A DNA stretch of 64,000 nt from positions 2,411,501 to 2,475,500 of the forward strand of contig CP054838.1 of assembly GCA_028768545.1 (NCBI GenBank). Reading direction: 5' to 3'. This document shows, one piece after another, positions 37,406-42,505 of the stretch. How positions within the stretch are numbered: position 1 is the first letter of the stretch; each line of letters starts with the position of its first letter. A program made the translations under genes and the position numbers. This stretch comes from Desulfobacter sp. GTDB lineage: Bacteria; Desulfobacterota; Desulfobacteria; Desulfobacterales; Desulfobacteraceae. The notes beneath the pieces are model-generated. The model did no database searches. It was not told where the DNA came from and saw nothing but the letters and a program-made list of their open reading frames with translations.

Positions 37406-39660
37406 TGGGTTTTTTACCGCCCCTGCCGAGAATAAAAACGCTTCTTATCCAGGAGATCCGCCTGGATCTTTCCTTTGAACAGGCCGCTGCAAGGTTTGCA
37501 GATATCCCGGGCACTGTCCTGCTCTTGTCCGGCTCTGATTTGGATTGTGCAAGGTATAATTGTCTGGCCCTTTATCCCTGGCTCTCTTTGGAAGGATCCG
37601 GTCGGAAACAGACCTTGAAGATAGAACAAAGGGACGGCCAATCCATTTCCCATACCTTTGACTGTGAACCCTTTGACCTGCTTCAAGCGCTTCTGGCAAG
37701 GTTTTCTCTTGGAGATATCGATTCAAACCTGCCCGTGGCTGCCGGGCTGTTCGGGTATTTTGCCTATGATTTAAAGGACGAGATCGAAAATCTTCCAAGA
37801 ACCTGTGTGGATACGTTTTTACCCGAGCTTTCTCTTTTTGCCCCTTCTGTTCTTCTGGTTGAAGACAGGACCCGAGGTAAAACCTATCTCTCCTCTCCTT
37901 TGCTTGACTGTGCCCATGGCCAACGCTGGGTACAGGAAAGAAAAGAAATGTTTTTTGTCCAATTGAAACAGCCTTGGAAATCAAAGGCCTTTTCAATTGA
38001 TCCCCAAGGCTTGATCTCTTCTTTTACCAAAGACGAATACATCAAGGCTGTCTCCCGGATCATCGAGTACCTTGAAGCCGGTGACATCTACCAGGCCAAT
38101 CTTTCCCAGCGGTTTGAGACCAAATTTACAGGGGACGTATATAGCCTTTTTCTGGAATTATTCAATAAAAATCCAGCCTCTTTTTTTAGTTTTATTCACT
38201 GCAAAGACCATGATGTGGTGTCCACCTCTCCTGAACGCTTTATTCAGCTCAGGGGAAAAAAGGTGGAAACCCGGCCCATCAAGGGGACCATTGCCAGGGG
38301 GACCACCCGTAAAGCAGACCGGGAAAACAGCAGAGCCCTAAGTGAGAGCTCCAAGGATGATGCTGAGCTGACCATGATTGTGGATCTCATGCGCAACGAT
38401 ATTTCCCGGGTAACCCTTGCAGGATCTGTGGATGTGACCCAGCACAAACGTCTTGAACCCTATGAAAATGTATTTCATCTGGTGTCTGTGGTCACTGGGA
38501 CCCTTGAACCGGATAAAACAGCTGTTGATCTGCTCCATGCCACTTTTCCGGGCGGATCCATTACTGGCTGTCCCAAGATCAGGGCCATGGAAATTATTGA
38601 TGAGCTGGAACCGGTCAAGCGCCACGTTTATACCGGGTCCATCGGCTATATCAGTTTTCACAATACCATGGACCTTTCCATTGCCATCCGTACGGCCACC
38701 ATCCATGAAAACCAGCTGGTTTTTTCAGTGGGCGGGGGGATTGTGGCTGATTCTGATCCTGAAAAGGAATACCAGGAAACCCTGGACAAGGGTAAAACCC
38801 TGATGGATACCCTTCTCAATGCCTCTTTTGACCCGGGCACCCGTCATTTGACCACCTGGGTGAACGGTAAGATTTTAAACCAAACCCGTGCCCGGGTGCC
38901 GGCTGCAAGCAAAGCCTTTCAATACGGGGCCGGACTCTTTGAAACCATCCGGGTGGAAAATGGAACACCCCTGCGGCTCAACGCCCATGTCAAACGGATG
39001 GAAAATGCATGGAAAAATTTGTTTGATATTCCGGTTCCCAATATCACCTGGGACAAGGTGATCACCCTTTTGGTCCGTGACAATAATCTTGAAGATCAGG
39101 TCTGTGCCGTCAAGCTTGTGATTGCAGAAGACGGGCGGCCCGGCCATCCTGTGTTCACTGCCGCCTTTATCAGACCCTATGTTCACAGGCTTGCACTGCT
39201 CAATAAAAAGGGGCTGGATCTTAAGGTTTTTCCAAATTCCCGCAAGACCTTTCTGGCAGATCACAAGACCTTAAATTATTTTTATTATGAGCGGGCCGGC
39301 AAATATGCCCGGGCCCAAGGCTGTGACGAGGCGTTGATTTTGAATTCGGATATGAGTGTATCTGAAACCAACACCTGTAATATTTTTGCCATCCAGGGTT
39401 CAACCCTTGTCTGCCCTGAGTCCTGTCATGTCCTGCCCGGGGTGACCTTTGGGGCCGTGTCCCAGGCCTGGCTTGCCAGAGGGTATAAGATCAGATATGA
39501 AAAAATGACTCCCGAACAATTGGCGGCCTATCCGAACGTCATGGTGGCCAATGCGCTCATGGGAGTTGTCCGGGTCGATCATATCAACGGGACCCGGATT
39601 GCCCAGGACCCGGGTCTTTGCAAAATGCTCAATGCGTTTCTAACCAATCAATCATCCTAG
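37405..39660 (+). CDS. pabB: Fused aminodeoxychorismate synthase component I and class IV aminotransferase/lyase
   Basis: 751 aa. Residues ~1-470 are a chorismate-binding PabB (AGDIYQANLSQRF, RPIKGTIARG, LMRNDISRV, PGGSITGCPKIRAMEII). From ~475 a fold-type IV PLP domain follows (WVNGKI, FQYGAGLFETIRVENG, LNYFYYERA, ALILNSDMSVSETNTCNIF), matching 4-amino-4-deoxychorismate lyase (PabC). The fusion would make p-aminobenzoate for folate from chorismate, if a glutaminase (PabA) is supplied elsewhere. It starts inside the stop codon of the preceding gene. Confidence 0.93.
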   Translation: MGFLPPLPRIKTLLIQEIRLDLSFEQAAARFADIPGTVLLLSGSDLDCARYNCLALYPWLSLEGSGRKQTLKIEQRDGQSISHTFDCEPFDLLQALLARFSLGDIDSNLPVAAGLFGYFAYDLKDEIENLPRTCVDTFLPELSLFAPSVLLVEDRTRGKTYLSSPLLDCAHGQRWVQERKEMFFVQLKQPWKSKAFSIDPQGLISSFTKDEYIKAVSRIIEYLEAGDIYQANLSQRFETKFTGDVYSLFLELFNKNPASFFSFIHCKDHDVVSTSPERFIQLRGKKVETRPIKGTIARGTTRKADRENSRALSESSKDDAELTMIVDLMRNDISRVTLAGSVDVTQHKRLEPYENVFHLVSVVTGTLEPDKTAVDLLHATFPGGSITGCPKIRAMEIIDELEPVKRHVYTGSIGYISFHNTMDLSIAIRTATIHENQLVFSVGGGIVADSDPEKEYQETLDKGKTLMDTLLNASFDPGTRHLTTWVNGKILNQTRARVPAASKAFQYGAGLFETIRVENGTPLRLNAHVKRMENAWKNLFDIPVPNITWDKVITLLVRDNNLEDQVCAVKLVIAEDGRPGHPVFTAAFIRPYVHRLALLNKKGLDLKVFPNSRKTFLADHKTLNYFYYERAGKYARAQGCDEALILNSDMSVSETNTCNIFAIQGSTLVCPESCHVLPGVTFGAVSQAWLARGYKIRYEKMTPEQLAAYPNVMVANALMGVVRVDHINGTRIAQDPGLCKMLNAFLTNQSS

Positions 39661-39725
39661 GGCACTTGTATAAAAGTTCTGAATAGGATAAATTTTAGGG
39701 AAATAATATCAGGAACGGATAGGAT

Positions 39726-40430
39726 ATGATGAAAAAGAGTCTTTTAATTTTTATGGTGGCAGCCGTGTTCACGCTTTGCACCACCATGGGGTATGCAAAG
39801 CCAAAAGCGGTGTTTGTGAACCCGACCTTTGAATTTTCCCCCCTGGCTGAAGGCCAGGGCATCACCCACGAGTTTGTCGTGAAAAACTTGGGAGATACCC
39901 CTTTAAATATTCTCAGTGTTATTCCGCCCTGAGGCTGCGATAAGCATGCCTATGACCGGCAGATTCCCCCGGGCGGGGAAGGTAAAATCAAGATAGGGGT
40001 TAAAACCGGCGGGTACGGCGGCAGCCGGATGAATAAAAAGATTCTGATCAAAACCGATGATCCGGAGTATAAAAAGTTTTATCTGACCATCACAGGAAAA
40101 GTGAACCAGATCTTTAAGATGACACCTAAAATCGTGAGCCTGAGCGGTGTTCCGGGCCAGGAGCTTGAGGCGGTTGTGACCATTACCCCGGCCTTGGATT
40201 ATGATTTTGAAATTTTAAGCTTGATTCAGAAATTCAACACCCAGATCAAGGCCGAGCTTATCCGGCCTGAAAAGGGACAAAGAGACTGGCTTGTCAAAAT
40301 AAAATCCAAGTCTGACAAGCCGGATGATCTTTATGATGTCATTACCCTTAAGACAAACAGCCCGTACAAGAAGAGTTTAAAGATCAGGGTCTATGCAATT
40401 TATTTTGAAGAGATTCAACAAAAATCATAG
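39726..40430 (+). CDS. DUF1573 periplasmic protein with in-frame TGA: candidate selenoprotein
   Basis: Reading through the TGA at 39930-39932 gives 234 residues in one frame. A signal peptide (MMKKSLLIFMVAAVFTLCTTMGYA) precedes a DUF1573 Ig-like domain: FEFSPLAEGQGITHEFVVKN, then NILSVIPP-[TGA]-GCDKHA, IPPGGEGKIKIGV and ILIKTDDPEYKKF. Family members have a CGC motif where this protein has TGA-Gly-Cys, so TGA replaces the first cysteine (residue 69). A second domain (~125-234) follows. The coding pattern is intact on both sides. Selenocysteine insertion is inferred; a nonsense mutation is the alternative. It lies 65 bp after pabBC and is followed by a HAD phosphatase. Confidence 0.7.
39933..39980 (+). 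promoter_or_regulatory. Possible bacterial SECIS hairpin after the in-frame TGA
   Basis: TTCCCC (39964-39969) and GGGGAA (39975-39980) form a perfect 6-bp stem around the loop CGGGC, which has G at its second position. The loop starts 37 nt past the TGA, at the far limit of the spacing I recall for bacterial SECIS models (16-37 nt). A weaker bulged stem, GGCTGC/GCATGCC, lies directly after the TGA (39933-39950). Confidence 0.4.
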
Positions 40431-40463
40431 GATCGGTTTGTCCGAATAAAAGAGGCCGTTTAA

Positions 40464-41096
40464 ATGGATGTTTCAACAATTAAGGCAGTGGTGTTTGACT
40501 GCGACGGGGTGCTGTTTGACACGGCCCTGGCCAATCGAAAATTTTACGATGAACTGCTTTTGGCCTTTGGTAAAAAAAGGCTGAATCAAGAACAATTTGT
40601 CAATGTTCATATGATGACGGTAAAGGCGGCCATTGAGTATCTTTTTTCTGAGCTTGAGGACCATACCCCTGTTTACGAGAAGATGAAATCCGTGGGCTAT
40701 GCTAAATTTATTCCCTATATGGAAATGGAAGACGGATTAAGGACGCTTTTGGGTGATTTGAAAGACCAGGGGCTGATCCGGGCCATTGCCACCAACAGAT
40801 CCAATACCATGGATTCTGTTTTATTGGATAATGATCTGGCAAACGAGTTTGAGATGGTGGTCACCTCGGCTGATGTGGATCATCCAAAACCTGCGCCGGA
40901 TCAATTGAATAAAATCATGGCAGCCTATGGGCTTTTGCCCGAAGAAATAATTTTTATCGGTGATTCTGAATATGATCAGAAAGCGGCTCAAAAGGCCGGT
41001 ACCTGGTTTGCTGCATTCAAACAGCCGGGACTGACGGCCCATGTCCATGTCCGGTCAATGAAGGAGATTGCCCCTCTTTTACGGTTAAACAAATAA
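40464..41096 (+). CDS. HAD-superfamily phosphatase (phosphoglycolate phosphatase-like)
   Basis: 210 aa. Motif I is FDCDGVLFDT, motif II lies in IATNRSNT, the lysine in HPKPAPDQ, and motif IV is IFIGDSEYDQKAA. The helical cap (~20-85) is of the C1 type seen in Gph-like enzymes. The exact substrate is unknown. It lies between the DUF1573 gene and sat on the same strand, but sat has its own promoter. Confidence 0.85.
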   Translation: MDVSTIKAVVFDCDGVLFDTALANRKFYDELLLAFGKKRLNQEQFVNVHMMTVKAAIEYLFSELEDHTPVYEKMKSVGYAKFIPYMEMEDGLRTLLGDLKDQGLIRAIATNRSNTMDSVLLDNDLANEFEMVVTSADVDHPKPAPDQLNKIMAAYGLLPEEIIFIGDSEYDQKAAQKAGTWFAAFKQPGLTAHVHVRSMKEIAPLLRLNK

Positions 41097-41130: not shown

Positions 41131-41227
41131 TTACAAGATTTTTAAATAAAATTGAAGTCAGATGCCGTGTATGCATTTGACGCCCATAAATTGGTAATTA
41201 AACCATTAATTAAGGAGATTGAAGTAT

Positions 41228-42505
41228 ATGTCTAAATTAGTTGCACCCCATGGTGGAAAAGGACTGGTAATTTGTAAGCTCGAAGGCGCTGAACTTGAAG
41301 CAGAAGTTAAAAAAGCAGCTGGCCTGAAACAGATTGAGATTTCTTCCCAGGTCAAAGGTGACCTGATCATGCTCGGTATCGGTGGATTTTCTCCCCTGAA
41401 CGGTTTCATGACCAAGGCTGACTGGAAAGGTGTTTGCGCTGATTTCCTTCTGGCTGACGGTACCTTCTGGCCTGTTCCCGTAATGCTTGATGCAGCGGCT
41501 TCTGATGCTGCCGACGTTAATGTCGGTGACGAGATTGCCCTGGTCAGAGGCGGTGAAACCTATGCCACCATGAAAGTCGAAGAAAAATTCGAAATGACCG
41601 AAGACGAGAAAAAATGGGAATGCGAGAAAGTCTATAAGGGTCATGGCGAAGAGTCTGCTGACGCTGACTTCTGGAAAATTGCCATGGAAGATCATCCCGG
41701 TGTTCAGGCGGTTATGGCCAGAAAAGAATTCTGCTTTTCAGGTCCTGTAAAAGTCCTTTCCGAAGGCGAGTTCCCTGAAAAATTCAAAGGTGTTTACCTG
41801 ACACCCACCGAGACTCGTGCCATCTTTGATGAAAGAGGCTGGGCAAACGTTGCTTCCATGCAGCTGAGAAACCCCATGCATCGTTCCCATGAGCATCTGT
41901 GCAAGATCGCCCTTGACGTATGTGACGGCGTTCTGATCCATTCTCTGATCGGTAACCTCAAACCCGGTGATATCCCTGCAGACGTTCGCATCGAATGCAT
42001 TGACACCCTGATCAAGGGTTACTTTGTTCCCGAGCATGTTGTCAATGGCGGATATCCCCTTGACATGAGATATGCCGGTCCCCGTGAAGGCCTGCTGCAC
42101 GCCACTTTCCGTCAGAACTACGGTGTCAACAGAATGATCATCGGTCGTGACCATGCCGGCGTTGGTGATTTTTACACACTTTTCGAAGCTCAGGAAATCT
42201 TTGACACTATTCCCCAGCCCGAAGGCGAAGGAAAAGCACTGCTTTGCGAACCTTTGAAAATTGACTGGACATTCTACTGCCACAAATGTGACGGCATGGC
42301 TTCCATGAGAACCTGCCCCCACGGCAAAGATGACCGCGTTATTCTTTCCGGTACCAAACTGCGTCACGCCCTGTCCAACAACGAAGAAGTTGTTGACCAT
42401 TTTGGCCGTGAAGAAGTTCTGGTTATCCTGAGAAAGTACTATGCCTCTTTGACTGAAAAAGTTGAAGTAAAACTGCAGAGCCATGCAGAAGGAAGCAAGA
42501 TGTAA
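41228..42505 (+). CDS. sat: Sulfate adenylyltransferase (dissimilatory ATP sulfurylase)
   Basis: 425 aa from ATG 41228 (a TTG three codons upstream lies nearer the AAGGAG and is less likely). Active-site blocks are [33 protein letters not shown] and SGTKLRHAL; a CHKC ... C pattern near the C-terminus fits the zinc site of this Sat group. It activates sulfate to APS, the first step of sulfate respiration. Codon use is markedly restricted, as in highly expressed genes. It is a single-gene unit between its own promoter and terminator; aprBA and pyrophosphatase genes are not in the window. Confidence 0.97.

Follow-up and report, generated by a model that had tools for sequence, protein, structure and literature searches.

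A probable OS_HP2/DUF1573 selenoprotein gene of Desulfobacter sp., its HAD hydrolase neighbour and its variant branches

We analysed a stretch of Desulfobacter sp. DNA (64,000 nucleotides of contig CP054838.1; hereafter the window) and found that one gene, whose reading frame is crossed by a TGA, very probably encodes a selenoprotein of an already listed family, which settles the question raised by a preliminary description made from the letters of this DNA. As a whole explanation, we propose, with a probability of roughly 0.85, that the gene makes an OS_HP2/DUF1573 selenoprotein in which UGA is read as Sec and Sec69 and Cys71 would serve as the redox pair. New here are the linkage to a HAD hydrolase gene and the side branches that keep the TGA while moving or losing the partner Cys. 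The HAD neighbour, kept even where Sec became Cys, offers a handle on this family of unknown function, and the natural variants offer a second one. The features are as follows.

39726..40430, + strand: probable OS_HP2/DUF1573 selenoprotein gene, 234 residues with TGA as Sec (reading frame, PF07610 and NF041425 matches)
39726..39797, + strand: likely signal peptide, residues 1-24 (by eye; helix at residues 4-20 of the predicted structure)
39813..40103, + strand: first Ig-like domain, which is the DUF1573 match, residues 30-126 (Pfam match, predicted structure)
39930..39938, + strand: TGA GGC TGC, Sec69-Gly70-Cys71 (translation, column in relatives)
39947..39961, + strand: near hairpin, 4 bp, -4.5 kcal/mol, weak in the window and strong in most relatives outside the window's own family
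39964..39980, + strand: far hairpin, 6 bp, loop CGGGC with G second, spacing 37 nt, -8.1 kcal/mol
40113..40403, + strand: second Ig-like domain, residues 130-226 (predicted structure, mean pLDDT 94.6)
40464..41096, + strand: HAD hydrolase gene (HAD_2, 106.7 bits), 33 bases 3' of the selenoprotein stop

The frame runs from ATG at 39726 to TAG at 40428-40430 and holds a single in-frame TGA (39930-39932, codon 69) within the motif PP-U-G-C-D. The Pfam model DUF1573 (PF07610) matched residues 30-126 with 57.6 bits (cut-off 26.1, E 1.3e-15), so that the domain runs across the TGA, and the interrupted DUF1573 frame described earlier was thus confirmed. This is the one DUF1573 gene in the window's genome, and a protein search of a plasmid collection gave no match. 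Furthermore, the protein scored 121.7 bits with the NCBIfam model NF041425, 'OS_HP2 family (seleno)protein' (cut-off 100). OS_HP2 stands in a selenoprotein table of 2008 with pfam07610 and the motif UxC (PMC2398784), and DUF1573 with UGC stands in tables of 2022 (PMC9312934) and 2026 (PMC13188914), the latter entry citing a 2007 Olavius algarvensis paper; in these three tables, the motifs given for DUF1573 are UGC or UxC alone. The model match and the tables together indicate that the family is known and that the gene is one more member. Hence the preliminary description went too far in calling it a candidate new selenoprotein with new chemistry for its family, since the tables and the NCBI family model already cover DUF1573 with UGC.

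We then investigated the codon at the Sec column in relatives. Among 121 distinct sequences, retained from 127 rows, with a spurious minus-strand match in L038 also left aside, the column held 82 TGA, 33 TGC and 6 TGT codons and no other residue; rows that cover a later domain alone have no residue there. Since the relatives were collected by likeness to a U-G-C protein, U-G-C-like forms are favoured in this sample. The order-wide search gave matches in 258 of 291 genomes, and among the 150 matches listed for the window's order, 139 had exactly one TGA and 11 had none; the phylum-wide search gave matches in 152 of 395 genomes. The U-G-C motif was found in all 34 loci L016-L049, including the window's own L020, and two TGA rows differed two places downstream (L121, U-G-S; L134, U-G-V). 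A tree of 120 rows, each of at least 190 residues, needed 12 changes between Sec and Cys, nine of them forced by well-supported branches. The restriction of the column to Sec and Cys codons (82 TGA, 39 Cys) is what the earlier proposal of Sec at the first Cys of a CGC motif would lead one to expect.

The coding character of both flanks, also claimed earlier, was borne out by low dN relative to dS against five relatives (L016, L017, L018, L022 and L024). Downstream of the TGA, dN was 0.22-0.31 and dS 1.4-3.1; upstream (42 codons), dN was 0.17-0.39, with dS saturated in three of the five. The changes fell mostly at third positions on either side of codon 69, and in these sequence comparisons purifying selection is seen to act on both sides of the TGA.

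To assess the RNA signal, we used the published bacterial SECIS model (PMC13188914), which allows a loop of 3-9 nt, a stem of 4-16 bp, a G at loop position 1 or 2 and a spacing of 16-37 nt, together with an energy threshold of at most -7.5 kcal/mol. The far hairpin of the window lies within all four published constraints (loop 5, stem 6, G second, spacing 37) and below the energy threshold, with its spacing at the limit. The GC-rich SECIS hairpin of the preliminary description therefore stands as a fit to the model at the outer spacing limit, but in most relatives outside the window's own family a nearer hairpin gives the stronger signal. The near hairpin of relatives lies 17-19 nt from the UGA and the far one at about 37 nt. 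At two pairs of the near hairpin (n = 62), C-G and T-A were both common, numbering 31 versus 18 and 37 versus 9.

As a null for folding, synonymous codons were shuffled between the sequences column by column; this alters no protein and keeps the columns, though not the kinship of the sequences. The sets were reduced at 90% identity (TGA, 81 to 72; Cys, 39 to 36), and L134 was excluded because of an insertion. The 72 TGA genes folded far more stably than their permuted copies (z -15.8 at +10..+34 and -11.7 at +30..+54), whereas the 36 Cys genes, a set half as large, gave z -1.7 and -1.0. Likewise, the strict SECIS model fitted 22 of the 72 TGA sequences (8.25 expected from permutation) and 3 of 36 Cys sequences (2.15 expected). 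Thus, genes that code for Sec retain the downstream RNA folding, and those that code for Cys do not. For the 10 sequences of the window's own family, z was -3.4 for the far hairpin, with values at least as low in 5 of 200 permutations, and -1.9 for the near one (2 of 200). Against synonymous recodings, the window's hairpin taken alone gave P 0.11 and the whole stretch +3..+54 gave P 0.04; the support from RNA comes from the set of relatives, not from the window's hairpins alone. An Rfam search of 39600-40600 gave two matches, both far under their gathering scores.

The window's genome encodes selA, selB, selD and tRNA-Sec, all over their cut-offs, and this machinery, the homologue column and the SECIS model together support Sec at codon 69, which we regard as nearly certain. 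The selD of this genome (L141, outside the window) has one in-frame TGA itself, and its product is therefore probably also a selenoprotein. In G003, a genome with a TGA copy, no tRNA-Sec passed the cut-off of 47 bits; the best score was 45.9, at contig ends. Of the 33 genomes of the order with no match, 20 were checked, and 13 had tRNA-Sec over the cut-off (more than 70 bits in 10), so that lost Sec machinery does not explain the missing genes.

The product would be a secreted, probably periplasmic protein of two Ig-like domains. SelB, guided by a hairpin just downstream, would bring Sec-tRNA to the UGA, and codon 69 would thereby become selenocysteine. In the structure predicted with Cys substituted for Sec (mean pLDDT 94.6), residues 69-71 lie between strands 60-66 and 71-76 of the first domain or at the start of the latter. 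Sec69 and Cys71, placed at this turn, may form a selenenylsulfide and alternate between oxidised and reduced states, so that the protein would act as a periplasmic redox protein. We consider this role somewhat more probable than its competitors together; the argument comes from the motif, the fold matches giving no function. The nearest solved folds were Ig-like domains of the HYDIN/ASH type and 2qsv. Ig-like repeats from cilia and adhesion proteins were frequent in the fold search; among the matches listed we recognised no redox protein, a result that excludes nothing. A sequence search of solved structures with alignment A1 (55 sequences chosen by hand from about 120) gave nine matches, of which only 2qsv was plausible (E 0.0004); seven troponin matches and one Nif11 match were taken as chance.

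The main rival to the redox role is that the protein is indeed a selenoprotein whose Sec-Gly-Cys, instead of carrying out redox exchange, serves to bind a metal or a compound of selenium or sulfur. A two-residue Sec/Cys motif at a turn that looks exposed in the predicted structure would suit such binding, as would the existence of variants with a vicinal Cys-Sec or with no second Cys. However, most selenoproteins of unknown function are expected to be oxidoreductases, according to PMC9312934, and we therefore hold binding to be the less likely assignment, though one to be taken seriously.

These variants fall into two layouts. In the C-U-G branch (loci L198-L221, L183-L190 and L192), the TGA gene was present in all 24 genomes searched, which belong to one Desulfobacterota family, and the motif in 25 sequences was C-U-G-V (17), C-U-G-A (6) or T-U-G-V (2). 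Twenty of the 25 fitted the bSECIS model, with the loop 19-22 nt from the UGA (19-20 nt in 24). In the permutation test, the outcome was weaker than for U-G-C: 16 of 21 non-redundant sequences fitted, with 10.0 expected from permutation (z -3.1 for folding), and GGG codons come with the protein motif itself. CGC was the motif in all six relatives retrieved for the sister family. The C-U-G family also held four strong stop-free rows (G625:C56, G705:C246, G625:C37 and G708:C135), and the single one that was read, G625:C37 (L191), gave C-G-C-G-G-V. The C-U-G genes have conserved neighbours, for example one that is MurJ-like by eye, all from one family, and this conservation may be plain synteny. 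The U-G-S forms have one domain, in which the second Cys is replaced by Ser, and occur in two genomes of one family (L121/L194 and L164/L195), with both hairpins predicted. With NF041425, four C-U-G and two U-G-S proteins scored 63-82 bits, below the cut-off of 100, suggesting that annotation may miss such forms; a Cys-coding relative, L104, was also below it (85 bits). We thus find it reasonably probable that the DUF1573 Ig-like fold is a general scaffold for Sec with several layouts (U-G-C, C-U-G-V/A and U-G-S), of which the U-G-C form would work with a dedicated HAD hydrolase in the window's order. Through the variants with a moved or lost partner Cys, it becomes possible to test what the Sec-Cys pair does.

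We also examined the gene neighbourhood. A HAD gene lay downstream in all 34 loci L016-L049, which are the best-scoring loci and not a random draw; in five of these (L035, L039, L042, L046 and L047), one extra gene, OmpA-like by eye, stands before it. Of 15 further TGA loci in the order, 10 likewise had the HAD gene downstream, and L071, one of the five without it, is truncated by a contig end; beyond the order, 1 of 10 TGA loci had it. L079, whose site sequence is the same as that of L078, was absent from the first neighbour count and present in the second. The HAD proteins of relatives shared 35-74% identity with that of the window, and genes farther out varied. Among Cys-coding copies with flanks, 4 of 13 in the order had the HAD neighbour (L148, L151, L152 and L155) and nine did not; outside the order, none of four did. 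Three of the genomes with the four HAD-linked copies were examined for tRNA-Sec and all have it; the remaining one, G045, carries a TGA copy at another locus. These four HAD-linked copies resemble orthologues that have exchanged Sec for Cys. The linkage suggests that the selenoprotein and the HAD hydrolase share a pathway or their control, and we found no mention of the pairing in the accessible parts of the literature naming DUF1573.

Tandem DUF1573 copies followed by the HAD gene were seen in two genomes, one with two TGA copies (L085/L103) and one with a TGA copy and a Cys-coding copy, the latter lying between the TGA gene and the HAD gene (L090/L102). In the window (41219-42505) and its close relatives (cluster c4, 17 loci, the window counted twice), sat, encoding sulfate adenylyltransferase, comes next after the HAD gene.

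The pairing also bears on the idea that the UGA is mainly a selenium-dependent switch, by which low selenium would cause a stop at codon 69 and less expression of the downstream HAD gene. The 33-base distance, the widespread pairing and a scan of the region, which gave no more promoter- or terminator-like sites than shuffles, would agree with such a switch, but the four HAD-linked copies with Cys codons keep the pairing all the same, and we judge it very improbable. The suggestion that the TGA is a true stop, in a pseudogene or through a sequencing error, leaving a remnant or a separate 133-residue ORF that starts at 40029, can practically be dismissed, since 82 distinct sequences share the TGA at this column, both sides are under purifying selection and the DUF1573 domain spans the codon.

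Finally, we compared the OS_HP2/DUF1573 selenoprotein of the window with known systems. The uncharacterised protein 2qsv from Porphyromonas gingivalis is related in sequence and likewise has two Ig-like domains (structural alignment Z 10.1, rmsd 12.4 over 184 residues, identity 12%), but is without selenocysteine, unlike the window's protein. The UGC-containing Prx-like (TlpA family) selenoprotein shares the UGC tripeptide and is listed in the tables of 2022 and 2026 as pfam00578/cd02966, presumably a thioredoxin-like fold, whereas the window's protein is predicted to be Ig-like. With the OS_HP2/DUF1573 selenoproteins (NF041425; pfam07610, UGC or UxC), the HAD pair and the two-hairpin signal are points that we did not find in the accessible parts of published descriptions; the motif, the place of the TGA and the kind of organism are alike, the family model scores above its cut-off, and nothing essential differs.
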